Shown piece by piece: positions 19,841-51,161 of a stretch of 64,000 nt of DNA. The notes beneath the pieces are model-generated. The model made no database searches and was not told where the DNA came from. It was given only the letters and a program-made list of their open reading frames with translations. The stretch is from Syncephalis fuscata. Lineage: Eukaryota; Zoopagomycota; Zoopagomycetes; Zoopagales; Piptocephalidaceae. The position numbers were made by a program, and so were the translations under genes. The first letter of the stretch is position 1. The number at the start of each line of letters is the position of its first letter. Where the stretch lies: NCBI GenBank assembly GCA_025786725.1, contig JAHLTZ010000013.1:1-64000 (forward strand), read 5' to 3'.

Positions 19841-21315
19841 GAAAAGCTAATCATGTTGTATTTGTTAAAAGACTTTAACAATATATTTGTGGCAAATGCA
19901 ACTCAAAAATACAATACAAAAACATGCTATGTAAAGATTAGCACTAATTGTGTTGGAACAGTGTTGGTGGTGAAATAAACGTTTTTATTGAATAAATACA
20001 AACTACTAATGAAGCAACTATCAAAATAATAAAGTGTAATGCAAACAAAAATGATTTAATTAATAAATATTTTAGATTTAAATCTAACCAACAAATAAGA
20101 TTAGATTGCTTTAGAGTATTTTAAATATCAGATATAGCAACTAAATAATTCCGAATTACATAAAAGTGTTATTGCTTTGATCAACTTAAATTAATTAGTT
20201 GGTGTATCAAGCAAGAGTGAAGATGTGCAAAATAAAACCGTCAACATGGCATTTGTCATTGATAAACTAGAACAATCTACTCGTAACGTTCATTTTAAAT
20301 GTCGCAGTAGTCGCTCCAATGTTCAATTTAAAAGAGTTGTGGGACATGGCGAAAGAAGCTTAAGAGGGTGCTGTGACGGATCATTTAAACCACTTGATTT
20401 GTATCAAATCTTGTGATATTTTTATTAAATAAATAAAGATCACTTTTTCCACAATATTGAGCATGCTATTGGTTGTTTAGTGTGATTTGGCAGTTAAATA
20501 GCTATAATAATCACGTATTTAAACTAAATATCCGCTTTATTGAAGATGAAACCGGCTGTTGAGTGTCATTGGTTATTAAGCTATTCATTTATCATTATTG
20601 TTGTACTGTACATATCTGTCTTGTATACACATACTATATGTCCGTCTATATCATTAATATTGTAAATTATAGAAATTATATTAATAGAAGCTAAAAGTTT
20701 ATTGCTAGCTGTATTCTTTTAGCAGATCTTGATTCATTTCGTTCATTGCTATTGGCTAATTGCATACAGTATAGTTTTGTTATTACTATTCACGTATTCG
20801 TTTTGTCTATTTATTTTGTTTTATAATATTGTATGCTTTATTGTCGTGTTTTATTAAAAAGCGTATTTATTCTAATTTCAGCATAATATTGTTTGGCTAT
20901 ATGATAATGATAGCTTTGCTACTATCCATACCAATCTATGCCTATAGCTTAGGCGATATAATTATACACATTTTGTTATTAATTTAACTATTGATTGATA
21001 ATTGTCATTATTGAATGCAAATAAACATGGTTATAGATATAGCAATTTGATTGTATATAGCTAAGATGGAACCATAGATTTATTACTATAAGCTTGCACA
21101 GTTGAATATGGGCAACTAGATGCAAACATGTTGGTAACATAATGATTCCATTGATTAAAGACTGGATAAACCGAAGCATTGGCAAAAACTTGCTATATAG
21201 ATAGACTGGACGCCGTAATTGTCAAATGGTTTTGATTTTCACCGAATATATATCTAAAGTGTATTGAAATAGTGGCTTGATTACACTACCAATGCTAATG
21301 TATTGTAGCCATTGA

Positions 21316-21513
21316 TTATGCGCTGCATTCCTTTTTGCAAATGTCGTTGCAAATGCTAGCATTCATGCCTTTTTTGCATTTAGTAGCCATGCAGCTGGTG
21401 CATTGAGGGCTTTTGCCACCACGACGAACTAAGGCTGGCTTAGCATCCACCATAGCTGTGGTGGCTATCAAAGCCACAACGATGGTGCAAATGACGGCAA
21501 TGGAAAGCTTCAT
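21316..21513 (-). CDS. Secreted cysteine-rich peptide, intronless paralogue
   Basis: 65 residues in one exon. The signal peptide MKLSIAVICTIVVALIATTA is followed by MVDAKPALVRR, possibly a short pro-region with a dibasic site, and then a mature part of 34 residues with Cys at 38, 41, 46, 55, 59 and 63. The exon-1 part, the promoter and the 3' flank are shared with the micro-exon gene at 46575-49360. Cys55 and Cys59 fall at the same residue numbers in both products. Role unknown; a small secreted Cys-rich peptide in a fungus suggests an antimicrobial or effector-like job, but this is inference. Confidence 0.75.
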   Translation of the reverse strand: MKLSIAVICTIVVALIATTAMVDAKPALVRRGGKSPQCTSCMATKCKKGMNASICNDICKKECSA

Positions 21514-21649
21514 GGTGATATTGACTTGTTAAGACAAATAAATAAAAGAGATAGTAGAGTGTAATTGGTATAAAGTGGAGAGTAGTGCGTGTATAGCAGA
21601 GAGTAGAGCGTGATGATAATATCGCAGTTGGTTGTGTATATTTTGCAGG

Positions 21650-21658
21650 CTATTTATA
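21650..21658 (-). promoter_or_regulatory. TATA box of the intronless peptide gene
   Basis: TATAAATAG on the minus strand, about 140 nt upstream of the ATG. The same element sits at the same distance upstream of the micro-exon paralogue. Confidence 0.55.
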
Positions 21659-23117
21659 CTTATGATTATGCTGAGATGCTAGTATACTGTAGTATACGAT
21701 ATATACCATTGATGTGTAACATGGACCAATAAAGCAATCTAAACAATGGTTTGAGGTGCGCATGTACCCATAAATCTATGGCATGATAGAATGCTCCCGG
21801 TCTTGATTTCAATCTGTCCGGCCTTTACTCCAATCTGCTAGTCATTCGCACAAATAATGGAACAACGCTAATAACCCAGTACATATGCGATAAAAATAGA
21901 TATATTAGTCTGTATTCTTTGTTATACGGTCTAACTATTTGGTAAAAACAAGCATATTGTTTAGTTTTGTAAACAAGACAAAGACGTCTTTGTTGTCAGT
22001 TCCCTGAATGACTCAGTCCCCAATATCTGCATCATACAAAGTAGTGCACAACAATGATGCAAAAACAGGTTTAATATATTAAACTGGTATTTTTATACAG
22101 GTTTTTACTGCTGTACGTAAGTCAGTTGTAGTTTTCAAATTATAAAGTGTGCTGACTGGTACATGTGCGTATTTCATTCACTACTATGCCCATTGTTATG
22201 GGATAGCAATTGTTCTGAATTCACAAATGCATCACATCAAGGTGTATCATGCCACATGTGCAACTACCATCATTCAAATGGCGGCTAATCCAAATTACCT
22301 AAAAGCAACTATACAATAAGTACTGTTTGTAGGATAATGCATCACGACATTTGAGCAATGGAATATTTCAACAAGTCATTTTCGCCATCAGTTTTTAGCT
22401 GTAGACTAAATTGCATCGGCTAAACTACACGCGATGCAATATGCAGACACTGGACTAGACACAATAGAAAGTTCCAATTGAATGTTAGCAATTTCGAGTG
22501 CATAATGTCAATGGATCGTATATCAACCGGTAATTATCCAAGGCCTAAGTGCTGCTTACATTTATGAAAACACTTTTGACAAGTTAAGCAAGATGGAATG
22601 TAGAAGAACAAGCCAAAGCAGAAACCAATAGAAAAACAATTAGCAGCTCAAAGAATTACTGGTTTGACCTATAACAAATCATTATACCTATGCTAAGCTA
22701 GACTACGTTTATCAAAAAGTTGGCTGTTGCTGATGCAGCTAGAACAGCAGCAACGTTAAATTGAGATAACGCACAGAAAACAAAGAGTTGTAGATAAAAT
22801 TGAATTGACAAGTTTAGTAATTAAATACTTATTATTGTTACTATAACTTGTAATTCTGGTTGTTTGTACAGATAAATATTTACAAGCACATTGTAACTTC
22901 TTATATACTTACATTTACACGATCATCAACTAAAACAACTAGTATAAGGCTTAATCTAATTATTTATCAATGTAAGCAGCTAATATTATACATTATTGCA
23001 GCAATTGAAAGACAGATTAATTTCATTTATTGATATTAATAAAAGTCGTATAATTGTATATTAAAATAAAACAAAACATTGGATTGAGCGCGTAATATTT
23101 ACATGATCAAATCATTT

Positions 23118-44347: not shown

Positions 44348-44712
44348 ATTTAGTCAGTTTAAGCATAAATCATAATAAATGGCTAATAAATTTAAAGTTA
44401 AAAATGAAATAGTATATAGTATGTATATATTAATGCAACAACAACAACAACTGTGGAACGACGTGAAATCACAATTGTATGGCTTCTATTAATATTCGAT
44501 CAATCTTTCTATACATGACCAACAGCAACAATGATTGGCCTCAAATGTCTCAACAAAATCAAATAGTATGTCCCATTATTTGTTTAAATCAATTTATTAA
44601 CAATATTTTAATAGAAAGTAACATAACTATATTGCATATGATAACGACATGACTCTGATTGGAGTGAATTTGCTTTGAGAACTCAAAAACTGGGAGTCAG
44701 AATGAAATGCGG
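43553..44712. repeat. Left arm of a large inverted repeat
   Basis: Nearly identical, in reverse orientation, to 62843-64000, beginning GTCATTTTGCTTGATTAACA and ending near GGGAGTCAGAATG. The arm combines most of a TIR element with an adjacent 360-bp segment that ends in a family-B-like terminal motif. The right arm runs off the window, so full length is unknown. Confidence 0.85.
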
Positions 44713-46574
44713 AATTTTGAAGCATTATTTACCATAGTAAATTACGATTTCAAATAAGCATAAATAAAACTATCAAGTCATCAATTCCTTTTATTATAAT
44801 TAGTACGAAATAAACATATTACAAATGATGTTGCTACATTCTCAAATGTAAAACAAAAGATGTACAAATAAAATTATTAAGTAGATATTTAATTATTTAA
44901 CATACACTAACAATTGTAATAGCTTAATAGATGCTATTATTTTTTATTAAAAGCTTGGTTTGCCTTTAATTTGCTAAAAAACGGCAATGTTACAACAACA
45001 GTAATAAAATGATGTAGCATTGACCAAGTAATCAAAAAAGAAAAATAAATAGTAGTTTAATTAAATATTTTGATATCAATTTAATAATAATACTATTAGT
45101 ATCAAATGACTTTAACTTATCACAATAACAAGTTAGCAGATTTATAACAAAAGTTGTAACTGTATAGATTTGATAATAAGCCAAAATAGATTGAATTATA
45201 AAAAGGCATTTTATTATTATTTGATTAATAGTATTGTGTATTTATAATATTATTGAATAAATACAAACTACTAATGAAGCAACTATCAAAATAAATAAAG
45301 TGTAATGCAAACAAAAACTGTTTAATTAATATTTTAGATTTAAATCTAACCAACAAATAAGATTAGATTGGTTTAGAGTATTTTGAATATCAGATATAGC
45401 AATTAAATAATTCCGAATTACATAAAAGTGTTATTGCTTTGATCAACTTAAATTAATTGGTTGGTGTATCAAGCAAGAGTGAAGATGTGCAAAATAAAAC
45501 CGTCAACATGGCATTTGTCATTGATAAACTAGAACAATCTACTTGTAACGTTCATTTTAAATGTCGCAGTAGTCGCTCCAATGTTTTAATTTAAAAGAGT
45601 CGTGGGACATGGCAAAAGAAGCTTAAGAGGGTGCTGTGACGGATCATTTAAACCACTTGATTTGTATCAAATCTTGTGATATTTTTATTAACTAAATAAA
45701 GATCACTTTTTCCACAATATTGAGCATGCTATTGGTTGTTTAGTGTGATTTGGCAGTTAAATAGCTATAATAGCCACACATTTAAACAAAATATCCGCTT
45801 TATTGAAGATGAAACCGGCTGTTGAGTGTCATTGGTTATTAAGCTATTTATTTATCATTATTGTTGTACTGTACATATCTGTCTTGTATACACATACTAT
45901 ATGTCTGTCTATATCATTAATATTGTAAATTGTAGAAATTATATTAATAAAAGCTAAAAGTTTATTGCTAGCTGTATTCTTTTAGCAGATCTTGATCCAT
46001 TTCGTTCATTGCTATTGGCTAATTGCATACAGTATAGTTTTGTTATTACTATTCACACATTTGACTTGTCTATTTATTTTGTTTTATAATATTGTATGCT
46101 TTATTGTCGTGTTTTATTAAAAAGCGTATTTATTCTAATTTCAGCATACTATTATTGGGCTATATGATAATGATAGCTTTACTACTATCCATACCAATCT
46201 ATGCCTATAGCTTAGGCGATATAATTATACACATTTTGTTATTAATTTAACTATTTGATTGATAATTGTCATTATTGAATGCAAATAGAACATGGTTATA
46301 GATATAGCAATTTGATTGTATATAGCTAAGATGGAACCATAGATTTATTACTATAAGTTTGCACAGTTGAATATGGGCAACTAGATGCAAACATGTTGGT
46401 AACATAATGATTCCATTGATTAAAGACTGGATAAACCGGAGCATTGGCCAAAACTTGATATATAAATAGACTGGGCGGCGTAATTGTCAAATGGTCTTGC
46501 TTTTCGCCGAATATATACCTAAAGTGTATTGGAATAGTGGCTTGATTTCACCACCAATGCTAATGTCCTTATGC

Positions 46575-49360
46575 TTATGGGTTATCTGCATTTATAAATA
46601 AAGATATTACATGTTATATAATTAGTGTATAAGCCATCAATATAAAATTTTACTTACGGTCTATTGGTATTATGTTATTGATACACATGGTGCATAACAT
46701 GTAATTAGTGAGTAATTAATCAATATGAAATGCTACTTACGGCCTATTGGTATTAAGTTATTGATACCCATAGTGCATAACATGCAATTAGTAAATAAAT
46801 AAATAATATACAATGCTAATTACATCCTATTAATATTGATTTGTTGATAAATACAATACATGGTATATAATTAGTATGTGTTCTATTGGTATGCAATATA
46901 ACCTACTGGCTATTGATGTTAAGTCATTGATAAGCACAATATATAGTATATAATTAGCGAGTAGTTAGTTGATATATGATATAACTTACTCCCTATTAAT
47001 ATTAAATTATTGATGAGCACAATACATAATATACAGTTAATGTATAGTTAGTTAATATACAATATCACTTACTGCCTATTAATATTAAACAATTGGTACA
47101 ATCAATAAATAGCATAGTTAATGTATAGTTAGTTAATATACAATACAACTTACAGACTATCAATATTAAATAATTGGTATTATCAGTAAATAGCATAGTT
47201 AATGTATAGTCAGTTAATATACAACATCACTTACGGTCTATTAGTATTAAATAATTGGTACAATCAGTAAATAGCATAGTTAATGTATAATCAGTTAATA
47301 TACAATATCACTTACAGTCTATTAATATTAAATTATTGATGAGCACAATACATGGTATATAATTAATGTATAGTTAGTTAATATACAATATCACGGGGAC
47401 GTTGCTAGCCCAGTTAGTAAGGCAGCGTCTCCCGAGCTGAAGGCTCCGGGTTCAAACCTCAGTTTGAATCAATCCTTAAGTGGAAAATCCCCCCAGTTTT
47501 TTCTAGTTAACAAATTGCAAACCAGAACCCAATAAGTAAGTCCGAAAACAAGACCTTGGCCAGAATAACCGAGGAAAACCCAATTGGGACCAACTTCAAG
47601 AGAATAGTGCTGTGTAGCACCATTTAAAGGAAGATGGCCCCTGTGTGAAATCTATATGGGCCAGATTTGCGAAACAACATGGCAGTCCACCCGTTAATTT
47701 GGGAAAGTCCAAATATAGTGGAAAGCAGCGCAAATTCTTTAATTATGCGCAGCAGGGGCTCACAAGCTCTTCAAAATAAAATAAAATAATATACAATATC
47801 ACTTACAGTCTATTAATATTAAATAATTAGTATTATCAGTAAATAGCATAGTTAATGTAGTTAGTTAATATACAATATCGCTTACCCACTATTAATATTA
47901 AATAATTAATATTATCAGTAAATAGCATGGTTAATATATAGTCAGTTAATACACAGTATCACTTACTGTCTATTAATATTAAATAATTGGTACAATCAGT
48001 AAATAGCAGTTAATATATAGTTAGTTAATATACAATACAACTTACTGTCTATTAATATCAAATAATTGGTATCATCAGTAAATAGCATAGTTAATATATA
48101 GTTAGTTAATACACAATATCACTTACTGTCTATTAATATTAAATAATTGGTATTATTAGTAAATAGCATAGTTAATGTATAGTCAGCTAATATAAAATAT
48201 CACTTACTGTCTATTAATATTAAATAATTGGTATTATTAGTAAATAGCATAGTTAATGTATAGTTAGTTAATATACAATACAACTTACAGACTATCAATA
48301 TTAAATAATTGGCATTATCAGTAAATAGCATAGTTAATGTATAGTTAGTTAATATACAATATCACTTACAGTCTATTAATATTAAATAATTGATACAATC
48401 AGTAAATAGCAGTTAATATATAGTTAGTTAATATACAATATCACTTACATTCTATTAATATTAAATAATTGATACAATCAGTAAATAGTATAGTTAATGT
48501 ATAGTTAGTTAATATACGATATCACTTACTGTCTATTATATCAAGTTGTTGATACGCACAATACATGGTATACAATTAATTTATAAGTCAGCAATATACA
48601 ATATTACTTACTATCTATTAGTATTAGGTTGTTGATATATATTATGCATAACACGTGGTTAGTACATAGTCCGCCAATATACAATGCTACTTACAGCCTA
48701 TTATTGTTAAGTTATTGATACACACAACGCATAATATATAATTAGTCAGTGTGCAATCAGTGTACAATATAACTTACATTGGTCTAATATCAAGCCATTG
48801 ATACATACAACACATAATATATAATTAGTTAATACTCAACTAATATACAATACAACTTACCCACTATGGCATCAAATTGTTGATGCACATAATACATGAT
48901 ATATGATTAATTTATAAGTTAGCATATACAATATCACTTACAGCCTATTGTTATTAAGTTGTTGATACACATAGTCCATAGCATGCAATTAGTGAGTAAT
49001 CAACCAATATACAATATAACTTACAGCCATCTAATATTAAGTTGTCAATGGATACAGTACATGACGTATAATTAGTGTATGCTTTATTGGTATATAATAG
49101 AACTTACAAACTATTGGTATTAAGTTGTTGATGAACACAGCGAATGACATGCAATTAGTGAGTCATTAGTTAATATACGATACAACTTACTATCTAATAG
49201 TATCATTAGTTAGCAATACTATTAATAAGCAGATACTATGGCATATTTATTGTTATTGCAACATACCACGACGAACTAAGGCTGGTTTAGCATCCACGAT
49301 GGCTGTACTGGCCACAAGAGCCACGACAATGGTGCAAACGGCGGCAATGGAAAGCTTCAT
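46575..49360 (-). CDS. Micro-exon gene for a secreted CX3C-X14-CX3C peptide (29 exons)
   Basis: Exon 1 (49267-49360, 94 nt) encodes a signal peptide plus a pro-region ending RR and stops in phase 1. Then come 27 internal exons, 3 nt each except two of 6 nt. Their lower coordinates are 49191, 49108, 49025 (6 nt), 48942, 48861, 48778 (6 nt), 48695, 48612, 48530, 48449, 48370, 48289, 48208, 48127, 48046, 47967, 47886, 47807, 47316, 47235, 47154, 47073, 46990, 46907, 46824, 46741 and 46658. The last exon is 46575-46585 with TAA. Introns are 72-80 nt (one is 488 nt with a SINE); 24 of 28 donors are GTAAGT and every acceptor is AG. The join is open for 63 residues, with mature Cys at 36, 40, 55 and 59 (CLDQC, CRTRC). 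The paralogue at 21316-21513 has 65 residues and also Cys55 and Cys59. Exon lengths are all multiples of 3, intron lengths are not. The spacing resembles alpha-hairpinins; function unknown. Confidence 0.8.
46586..49266 (-). repeat. Tandem array of intron/micro-exon units (about 81 bp each)
   Basis: On the minus strand each unit runs GTAAGT, then TATTAACTAACTATACATTA or a relative, then TTAATATTAATAG, followed by 3 variable bases. The middle units (roughly 47073-48530) are almost identical; the outer units (46586-47070 and 48535-49266) are more diverged but alignable. This points to repeated local duplication of an intron plus a one-codon exon. It could be taken for a plain minisatellite, but the variable bases are confined to the gap between the AG and GT borders. 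Confidence 0.85.
47395..47786 (+). mobile_element. tRNA-derived SINE with 16-bp target duplication
   Basis: The head resembles a tRNA: an A-box-like TAGCCCAGTTAGTAAGG (47406-47422) and a B-box-like GGTTCAAACC (47449-47458). A roughly 300-bp tRNA-unrelated body follows, ending in an AAATAAAATAAAA-type tail. Perfect direct repeats TAATATACAATATCAC flank it (47379-47394 and 47787-47802). It lies antisense in intron 19 of the micro-exon gene, raising that intron from about 80 to 488 nt. It is GC-richer than its surroundings. Confidence 0.85.
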
Positions 49361-49495
49361 GATAATATTGAATTGTTAAGACAAACAAAAAAAGAGATAG
49401 TAGAGTTTAGTTGGTATAAAGTGAAGAGCAGTGCGTGTATAGCAAGAAGTAGAGTGTGATAATGATATCGTAGTTGGTTGTGTATATTTTGTGGG

Positions 49496-49504
49496 CTATT
49501 TATA
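49496..49504 (-). promoter_or_regulatory. TATA box of the micro-exon gene
   Basis: TATAAATAG on the minus strand, about 140 nt upstream of the ATG at 49360, at the same spacing as in the intronless paralogue. The conserved promoter suggests both copies can be transcribed. Confidence 0.55.
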
Positions 49505-51161
49505 CTTATGATTATGCTGAGATAATAGTATACTGTAGTATACGAGATATACCATTGATGTGTAATATGAACCAATAAAACAATCCAAATAATGGTTTGA
49601 GGTGCACATGCACCAATAGATTCATGGCGTGATATTATGCTTTCAAACTTAATTTCAACCTGCTCGGCATTTACACAAATGACACGGCAATTCCAATGAG
49701 CATTACATGTGCGATAGAGACATGTACATCACTTTGCTTTTTTATTACACGGTCTAACTATTTGGTAAAAGCAAGGTACTGTTTAACTTTGTAAAAGCGA
49801 TAGTGATATTTTTGCCGTCATTTCTACCGATTCAGTCCTCAATATCTGCATGCATACTAAACAGCACACAACCTGCCCGGTCTTTACTTCAATCTGTTAG
49901 TCATTTGCATGAGTACTGTAACGGTGTTCATAACCCAGTACATATGGTAAAAATAGACACATTAACCTGTTTTTTTATTACACGGTCTAACTATTTGGTA
50001 AAAGTAAGTATATTGTTTGGTTTTGTAAAAAAGATAATGATGTCTGCTGCCATTTCTACCGATTCGGTTCTCAATGTCTGTATGCATACAGAATAGCACA
50101 CAAAACTGCTGCAAAAACAAGTTTATCAAACTGGTATTTATACAGGTTTTTACTGCTATACATAGGTCAGTTGTAATTTTAAATTATAAAGTATATTGAT
50201 TGGTACATGCGCGTATTTCATTCCACTATGCCCATTGTTATGGGGTAGCAATTATTCTGAATTCACAAATGCATCACATCAAGGTATATCATGCCACATG
50301 TGCAACTACCATCATTCGAATGGCGGCTAATCCAAATTACCTAAAAGCAACTATACAATAAGTACTGTTTGTAGCATGATGCATCACGACATTTGAGCAA
50401 TGAAATATTTCAACAAGTCATTTTCGCCATCAGTTTTTAGCTGTAGACTAAATTGCATTGGCTAAACTACACGCGATGCAATATGCAGACACTAGACTAG
50501 ACACAATAGAAAGTTCCAATTGAATGTTAGCAATTTCGAGTGCATAATGTCAATGGATCGTATATCAACCGGTAATTATCCAAGGCCTAAGTGCTGCTTA
50601 CATTTATGAAAACACTTTTGACAAGTTAAGCAAGATGGAATGTAGAAGAACAAGCCAAAGCAGAAACCAATAGAAAAACAATTAGCAGCTCAAAGAATTA
50701 CTGGTTTGACCTATAACAAATCATTATATCTATGCTAAGCTAGACTACGTTTATCAAAAAGTTGGCTGTTGCTGATGCAGCTAGAACAGCAGTAACGTTA
50801 AATTGAGATAACGCACAGAAAACAAAGAGTTGTAGATAAAATTGAATTGACAAGTTTAGTAATTAAATACTTATTATTGTTACTATAACTTGTAATTCTG
50901 GTTGTTTGTACAGATAAATATTTACAAGCACATTGTACCTTCTTATATACTTACATTTACATGATCATCAACTAAAACAACTAGTATAAGGCTTAATCTA
51001 ATTATTTATCAATGTAAGCAGCTAATATTATACATTATTGCAACAATTGAAAGACAGATTAATTTTATTTATTAATTATTAATAAAAGTCGTATAATTGT
51101 ATATTAAAATAAAACAAAACATTGGATTGAGCGCGTAATATTTACATGATCAAATCATTTT

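Follow-up and report, generated by a model that had tools for sequence, protein, structure and literature searches.

Organization of the locus

The window analysed here is a 64,000-nucleotide (nt) stretch of the genome of Syncephalis fuscata (contig JAHLTZ010000013.1, positions 1 to 64,000), a member of the Zoopagales and a parasite of other fungi. On its minus strand, between positions 49360 and 46575, lies a gene for a putative secreted peptide in which a 94-nt first exon, 27 internal exons and a short last exon are separated by 28 GT-AG introns (Table 1). The internal exons are 3 nt long in 25 cases and 6 nt long in the other two (ATGGCT and ACCAAT), so that nearly the whole mature part would be read from single codons, and the joined coding sequence of 192 nt encodes 63 residues. 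This model, with its 94-nt phase-1 first exon, its open frame to a stop in the final exon and four mature cysteines spaced CX3C-X14-CX3C, had been proposed in a preliminary description of the locus and was reproduced in every respect. The introns measure 72–80 nt, with the exception of intron 19 (488 nt), whose repeat insert had gone unmentioned in the preliminary description. They represent all values modulo 3 while the exon lengths are multiples of three, again as previously described. The GTAAGT...TAG borders reported earlier were found at most introns; however, the donors GTATGT, GTAAGC, GTAGGT and GTAATT each occur once, and the last acceptor is TGCAG.

The predicted product consists of a signal peptide, the propeptide KPALVRR, which likely ends in a Kex2-type RR site, and the mature sequence DIYGCLDQCYNKYFYNNNMDYYLCRTRCHHNP. 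A hydrophobic leader and the RR pair were also seen by inspection in the models of related genes, and cysteine made up 41 of the 263 residues in the mature parts of eight chosen in-frame models. A Pfam search with the family returned four families, all of them weak and the best with an E value of 0.0093; they were zinc-finger-like, PLATZ or unknown. A sequence search of the PDB gave no matches up to an E value of 1, and a search of Rfam with positions 46300-49700 gave none either.

Table 1. Features of the array gene and its intronless paralogue in the window.
Feature	Position	Strand	Basis or remark
TATA-like box (TATAAATAG)	49496..49504	-	144 nt upstream of ATG, read from sequence
Exon 1 (94 nt, phase-1 end), encoding signal peptide and propeptide KPALVRR	49267..49360	-	gene model
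Array: 28 introns (mostly GTAAGT...TAG), 27 micro-exons between	46586..49266	-	gene model, repeat detection
Exon 2 ATA	49191..49193	-	gene model
Exon 3 TTT	49108..49110	-	gene model
Exon 4 ATGGCT (6 nt)	49025..49030	-	gene model
Exon 5 GCT	48942..48944	-	gene model
Exon 6 TGG	48861..48863	-	gene model
Exon 7 ACCAAT (6 nt)	48778..48783	-	gene model
Exon 8 GCT	48695..48697	-	gene model
Exon 9 ATA	48612..48614	-	gene model
Exon 10 ACA	48530..48532	-	gene model
Exon 11 AAT	48449..48451	-	gene model
Exon 12 ACT	48370..48372	-	gene model
Exon 13 TCT	48289..48291	-	gene model
Exon 14 ACA	48208..48210	-	gene model
Exon 15 ACA	48127..48129	-	gene model
Exon 16 ACA	48046..48048	-	gene model
Exon 17 ACA	47967..47969	-	gene model
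Exon 18 TGG	47886..47888	-	gene model
Exon 19 ACT	47807..47809	-	gene model
Intron 19, 488 nt: ordinary 80-nt unit intron plus insert	47319..47806	-	gene model
Insert in intron 19, ~390 bp, 16-bp repeat at each end (47787-47802, 47379-47394)	~47395-47786		limits by eye
Exon 20 ACT	47316..47318	-	gene model
Exon 21 ACC	47235..47237	-	gene model
Exon 22 TCT	47154..47156	-	gene model
Exon 23 GCA	47073..47075	-	gene model
Exon 24 GGA	46990..46992	-	gene model
Exon 25 CCA (next donor GTAGGT)	46907..46909	-	gene model
Exon 26 GAT (next donor GTAATT)	46824..46826	-	gene model
Exon 27 GCC	46741..46743	-	gene model
Exon 28 ACC	46658..46660	-	gene model
Last exon, coding part (ATAACCCATAA), 11 nt with stop, TGCAG acceptor before	46575..46585	-	gene model
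Conserved 3' region	46352..46574	-	comparison with other loci
Intronless paralogue, 65 residues, Cys-rich mature part	21319..21513	-	model and comparison
5' flank of intronless paralogue, 87% identical to that of array gene	21518..21812	-	295 bp
3' region of intronless paralogue; identity to array gene (window 46566-46192) 95.7%	20929..21301	-	375 bp

The array gene family

The preliminary description had treated the gene as a single case, whereas the genome contains a large family. The pattern WWTAG-NNN-GTAAGT, required twice at a distance of 50–80 nt, was found in 2023 neighbouring unit pairs genome-wide and the reversed pattern in none, on which a chance origin of the unit pattern was rejected. 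A stricter single-unit pattern gave 1184 occurrences with exactly 3 nt between the borders, compared to 1192 with any gap of 1–12 nt. The 5' end of intron 1 was present in 111 copies at up to two mismatches (control, 2), and the leader had at least 150 matches. Division of the pair and single-unit counts by 14.4 and 11.75, the respective hits per locus in the 16 complete loci, suggests roughly 140 or 100 array genes. With pattern and leader found at many loci, the idea of a single-gene curiosity was discarded.

Thirty distinct loci were modelled: the window gene, 20 longer stretches and nine loci with about 1.5 kb of downstream sequence. The 29 loci outside the window were those ranking next among 40 that had been scored for resemblance to the 5' end of the window gene; a tenth short-stretch entry (L021) proved to be the L070 locus and was counted once. 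The models were built by dynamic programming blind to reading frame, scoring donors, acceptors and intron length and allowing any exon length of 1–15 nt. Among the resulting 718 internal exons 711 were multiples of three, with 668 of 3 nt, 40 of 6 nt and three of 15 nt; the remainder comprised five of 2 nt and one each of 7 and 10 nt, the last two appearing by eye to be 3-nt exons with other donors. The 16 loci complete at both ends carried 13–33 internal exons. The frame was kept as modelled in 12 of them, every intron in the in-frame models being phase 1, and in 10 of these 12 the stop lay in the last exon, 2–17 nt beyond the array. The element TATAAATA was present at -144/-145 in 15 of the 30 loci, and 18 other loci were 83–97% identical from the last intron through the last exon into the 3' region. 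The short arrays of L056 and L062 have 13 one-codon exons and run into an internal stop, which would give a mature peptide of just 11 residues with two cysteines.

Predicted codons across introns

If the 3-nt exons are joined in phase 1, a junction codon would consist of the last base of one exon and the first two bases of the next, with an intron of about 78 nt in between. Junction codons were counted in 24 loci, after seven of the 31 entries had been dropped: the double (L021), five close relatives of kept loci (L022, L025, L059, L062 and L064) and the locus with a shifted leader (L065). For the null distribution, the exons of each gene were put in random order 2000 times. A single stop was found among the 553 junction codons (shuffled mean 30.1, minimum 18), cysteine codons numbered 103 (mean 53.7, maximum 71) and the mutual information across junctions was 0.261 bits (0.064, maximum 0.118); none of the 2000 shuffles was as extreme on stops, cysteines or mutual information. 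When only the double was dropped (30 loci) there were three stops in 688 junctions, one of them at the mis-modelled 10-nt exon. Reading the 24 loci in phase 2 gave 44 stops in 553.

Junctions that would arise by skipping exons behaved differently. Skipping one exon gave 35 stops in 535 codons (28.8 when shuffled) and 38 cysteines against 51.5, and skipping two, three or four gave 27 of 511, 31 of 487 and 20 of 463 stops, compared to shuffled values of 27.4, 25.9 and 24.9. The avoidance of stops and excess of cysteines at consecutive phase-1 junctions, without stop avoidance where one exon is skipped, indicate that selection acts on the one-codon exons joined in order and complete, without skipped forms.

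Exon variability and splice signals

Across 532 units the exon columns had an entropy of about 1.9 bits, which is near random, between almost invariant borders. Within genes, pairs of units that were 90–95% identical in their introns had an exon identity of 36%, against a background of 28% (101 pairs, eight genes). The same was apparent between genes: in ten paralogue pairs the splice-site bases differed by 0.3–3.2%, the introns by 3–25% and the exons by 6–61%, the exons being more diverged than the introns in all ten.

GTAAGT formed 503 of the 577 modelled donors and TAG 519 of the 532 acceptors, in which AG is given by construction of the models. The introns have the GT(AAGT) donor and YAG acceptor of U2-type introns and a median length of 78 nt, 184 of 588 being at the modal length. 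Candidate branch sites of the form YTRAY placed the A at -10 in 395 of 601 introns and at -27 in 209. An intron of similar kind, GTAAGT...TATAG, was seen by eye in an ordinary gene, that of glutathione reductase. Two post hoc tests concerned exon sequences that would compete with these signals. An AG at the end of an exon would provide a second acceptor; such exons numbered 6 of 544 where about 18 were expected (Fisher p 3.7e-4). TRA was absent from the 85 exons starting with T, RA being found at the same place in 40 of 459 others (p 0.0012); TAA or TGA exons would build a GTAAGT or GTGAGT donor overlapping the acceptor. Read alone, the exons contained one stop in 631, and the 3-nt exons no stop triplet where composition predicts about ten, a scarcity which we attribute to splicing constraint.

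Intronless paralogue and other leader-bearing proteins

The window also holds an intronless paralogue of 65 residues, whose leader is 86% identical to that of the array gene and which has, in place of the array, 34 uninterrupted codons rich in cysteine. Its Cys55 and Cys59 fall at the same numbers as in the array product, confirming a further point of the earlier description, and it appears to display the kind of peptide expected from a spliced array. The homology of its 5' flank with that of the array gene speaks against origin as a simple retrocopy. In the alpha-hairpinin fold two helices with a CX3C-Xn-CX3C pattern are joined by two disulphides. A structure of the intronless paralogue predicted without an alignment has mature helices at residues 36–45 and 52–58, with a mean predicted local distance difference test score (pLDDT) of 71 and a predicted template modelling score (pTM) of 0.42; a fold search of the PDB with this model gave three matches, none below an E value of 0.001.

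All ten database proteins with this leader are from S. fuscata. Two of them are Cys-rich and match the genome at 100% without a break (P0010 and P0013), and one has two exons. A single leader serves several gene architectures. P0016 carries the leader and no cysteine in its mature part. The annotated proteins P0002 and P0011 seem to read through an array-type intron, the segment KLYCILTDYALI of P0011 corresponding by eye to the intron start GTAAGTTATATTGTATATTG, and some public gene models of the leader family therefore look wrong.

Alternative explanations

The phase-1 junction codons, conserved borders, hypervariable exons, depletion of competing sites and intronless paralogue support the secreted-peptide reading of the earlier description. 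Judged from the genome sequence, the window gene is very probably functional and one of a large family of genes for fast-diversifying secreted peptides, whose mature part is constitutively chain-spliced from one-codon exons. A number of observations weigh against this view. Taken by itself, the window gene is matched by 1.1% of its shuffles, and the shuffle test is of moderate strength gene by gene, falling below 5% in nine of 12 in-frame loci; the kept loci are moreover relatives, so that their junctions are not fully independent. With the codon positions of ordinary genes as reference, exon composition agrees best with phase 0 rather than phase 1; phase 1 agrees best if the 33 mature codons of the intronless paralogue are the reference, which is one gene, chosen afterwards. 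The conservation of donors and splice sites is partly built in, as the models seek such sites. Four of the 16 complete loci were called frame-broken (L055, L057, L061 and L065), of which L057, when read by eye with GTATGT as donor, resolves to an exon of 3 nt. Two in-frame loci, L056 and L062, stop inside the array. Finally, among the ten leader-bearing database proteins, of which two were traced to uninterrupted genes, one has two exons and seven were not traced, none could be identified as the product of a spliced array.

Divergence between close copies also tempers the case. Two near-identical pairs differ in their introns and not in their exons (L056/L062, 0 of 39 exon against 10 of 956 intron positions; L024/L025, 0 of 24 against 1 of 481). 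In most paralogue pairs the silent position also lies above intron divergence; plain positive selection is insufficient to explain all of the exon divergence, and cassette replacement alongside point selection is likely. Per base, gap openings show no clear deficit in exons relative to introns (3 in 824 exon against 149 in 19,895 intron positions). The preliminary description had pointed to exon length, and the constancy of 3 nt is real, but it carries less weight than it appears to, because a spacer with the per-base indel rate of the introns would by our estimate mostly stay at 3 nt. Exon-length constancy and exon indel counts, with rates indistinguishable from neutrality, were accordingly dropped as main evidence, and the decisive evidence is the coupling of exons across introns.

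That same estimate is one of the points in favour of a minisatellite, in which units of 76–83 bp would lie inside one long intron, exon 1 would be spliced to the last exon and the micro-exons would never enter the mRNA. The array is indeed detected as tandem repeats, and skipping it whole keeps the frame, giving the leader followed by DNP. However, a minisatellite would not couple exons some 78 nt apart in the manner of codons, nearly free of stops and with twice the cysteines, between neighbours only and in phase 1, nor should a neutral spacer be the most variable part of repeats otherwise so alike. A plain satellite was rejected on this junction coupling and exon variability, and we regard the minisatellite as most improbable. 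The arrays could instead be decaying relics, intron-invaded genes now largely pseudogenes, with the intronless copies as the working ones. Intronless members, some of them Cys-rich, do exist, and 2-nt exons occur in five of the 30 loci (L055, L061, L065, L068 and, doubtfully, L027), L065 having a shifted leader as well. These features count against intact arrays too, but stops are almost absent across the 24 loci in spite of high exon divergence, and the splice-site bases are about 97% or more identical, making decay very unlikely.

A combinatorial generator of diversity, in which exons are skipped in many combinations as described for schistosome micro-exon genes (PMC4350168), would suit exons that are nearly all threefold and in one phase, since most skips would keep the frame. 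Against it, stops are not reduced at junctions made by skipping one to four exons, and cysteines are few where a single exon is skipped; skipped products have apparently not been under selection. Combinatorial skipping was rejected as a selected function on the stops at skip junctions, and this explanation is on the whole unlikely.

Proposed mechanism

For a family in which one-codon exons are joined in order, we infer the following course from transcription to function. Transcription would start at the TATA promoter. Through intron definition, the spliceosome would then remove the 28 introns in order, with no exon skipped; every step would resemble recursive splicing except that it deposits 3 nt, in phase 1. 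As there is hardly room on a 3-nt exon for the U2 factors and U1 together, neighbouring introns would be removed successively: alternate introns might go first, or removal might proceed like a zipper, with every newly made junction meeting the GTAAGT that follows. The secreted precursor would be cleaved behind the RR pair, and disulphides would hold its fold. Near-identical introns around unrelated codons suggest that intron-plus-codon cassettes are gained, lost and shuffled as the mature part evolves. Diversifying selection on the mature part would be strong, and its probable function is that of an effector or antimicrobial peptide acting on host fungi. Lifestyle, leader and diversification together point to a probable role in mycoparasitism.

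It is likely, though less so than the splicing of the family from one-codon exons, that these are 'codon-cassette' genes, at least about 100 in number, in which single codons, each with its own intron, would be the units of duplication, loss and shuffling, the introns serving as scaffold, the exons as payload and ordered splicing as the means of joining them.

Other features of the window and genome

The insert in intron 19 recurs in array introns of L052, L059, L062, L065 (twice), L024 and L026. By eye it carries tRNA-like A and B boxes on the plus strand, resembling a short interspersed element; ARAGORN found no transfer RNAs in the whole window. Isolated matches to an acceptor, 3 or 6 nt and a donor were seen outside the array at window positions 44409 (+) and 63145 (-). 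On one contig (G000:C1) array genes lie as closely similar inverted copies at about 475,000 (+; L059) and 534,000 (-; L064), and a further inverted array pair lies at 575,000 (-) and 610,000 (+), which suggests large inverted duplications around array genes there. Unit arrays at G000:C2:276020-276280 and 470208-471268 have introns that look clearly unlike those of the window gene and perhaps represent further subfamilies.

Comparison with known systems

Conotoxin-type precursors combine a conserved signal and propeptide with a hypervariable, Cys-framed mature part; the S. fuscata family resembles them in this layout and differs from their conventional exons. Bicycle proteins of aphids carry paired cysteines. 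The bicycle genes are described as a large effector-like family (PMC9168663) with many tiny exons, about 17 on average and nearly all phase 2, whereas here the exons are mostly single codons in phase 1 between repeated short introns. The micro-exon genes (MEGs) of Schistosoma encode secreted, fast-evolving proteins of the host interface which are hard for automatic annotation, and have 10–20 exons of 6–81 bp (3–81 bp in an abstract), mostly 15 bp, with introns of 0.1–5 kb (PMC10526429, PMC4350168). Both systems rely on very small symmetrical exons, here for the mature part, the leader being one 94-nt exon, but in S. fuscata 668 of 718 exons are 3 nt and the introns of about 78 nt are repeats of each other. 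MEGs are there described as making variants by alternative splicing, while skip junctions here bear no sign of selection.

Fungal introners (PMC9860276, PMC4457414) are near-identical spliceosomal introns present many times per genome. They insert across many genes, whereas in the modelled S. fuscata loci the copies are stacked codon by codon, and all 30 arrays follow the same leader, by similarity to which the loci were chosen. Exons of 1 nt occur in Fusarium CYP621A and Arabidopsis APC11, and exons of 1–5 nt can be spliced, fungi included (PMC12940212); those genes have one tiny exon in a conserved motif, whereas in the window gene 27 tiny exons follow one another within a hypervariable part. 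The passages cited here on MEGs, bicycle genes, introners and 1-nt exons contain no description of serial one-codon exons, and searches of the open-licence literature on one-codon or 3-nt exons, fungal micro-exon genes, introners and Syncephalis listed no such report.

We call the array gene a new form of micro-exon gene; as codon-cassette genes, the arrays would form a kind of their own. If the arrays are spliced as their codons imply, this would to our knowledge be the densest packing of introns in a coding sequence, with about one intron per mature residue faithfully removed across perhaps a hundred genes. Standard annotation would then seem to have missed most of the family, with ten database proteins against at least 150 leader matches. 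Such splicing would challenge presumed limits to how small an exon can be and how close two splice sites can lie, as a 3-nt exon hardly holds two spliceosomes at once, and would provide a natural system for sequential or recursive splicing. It would also reveal a possible new route of fast peptide evolution at the interface between parasite and host.

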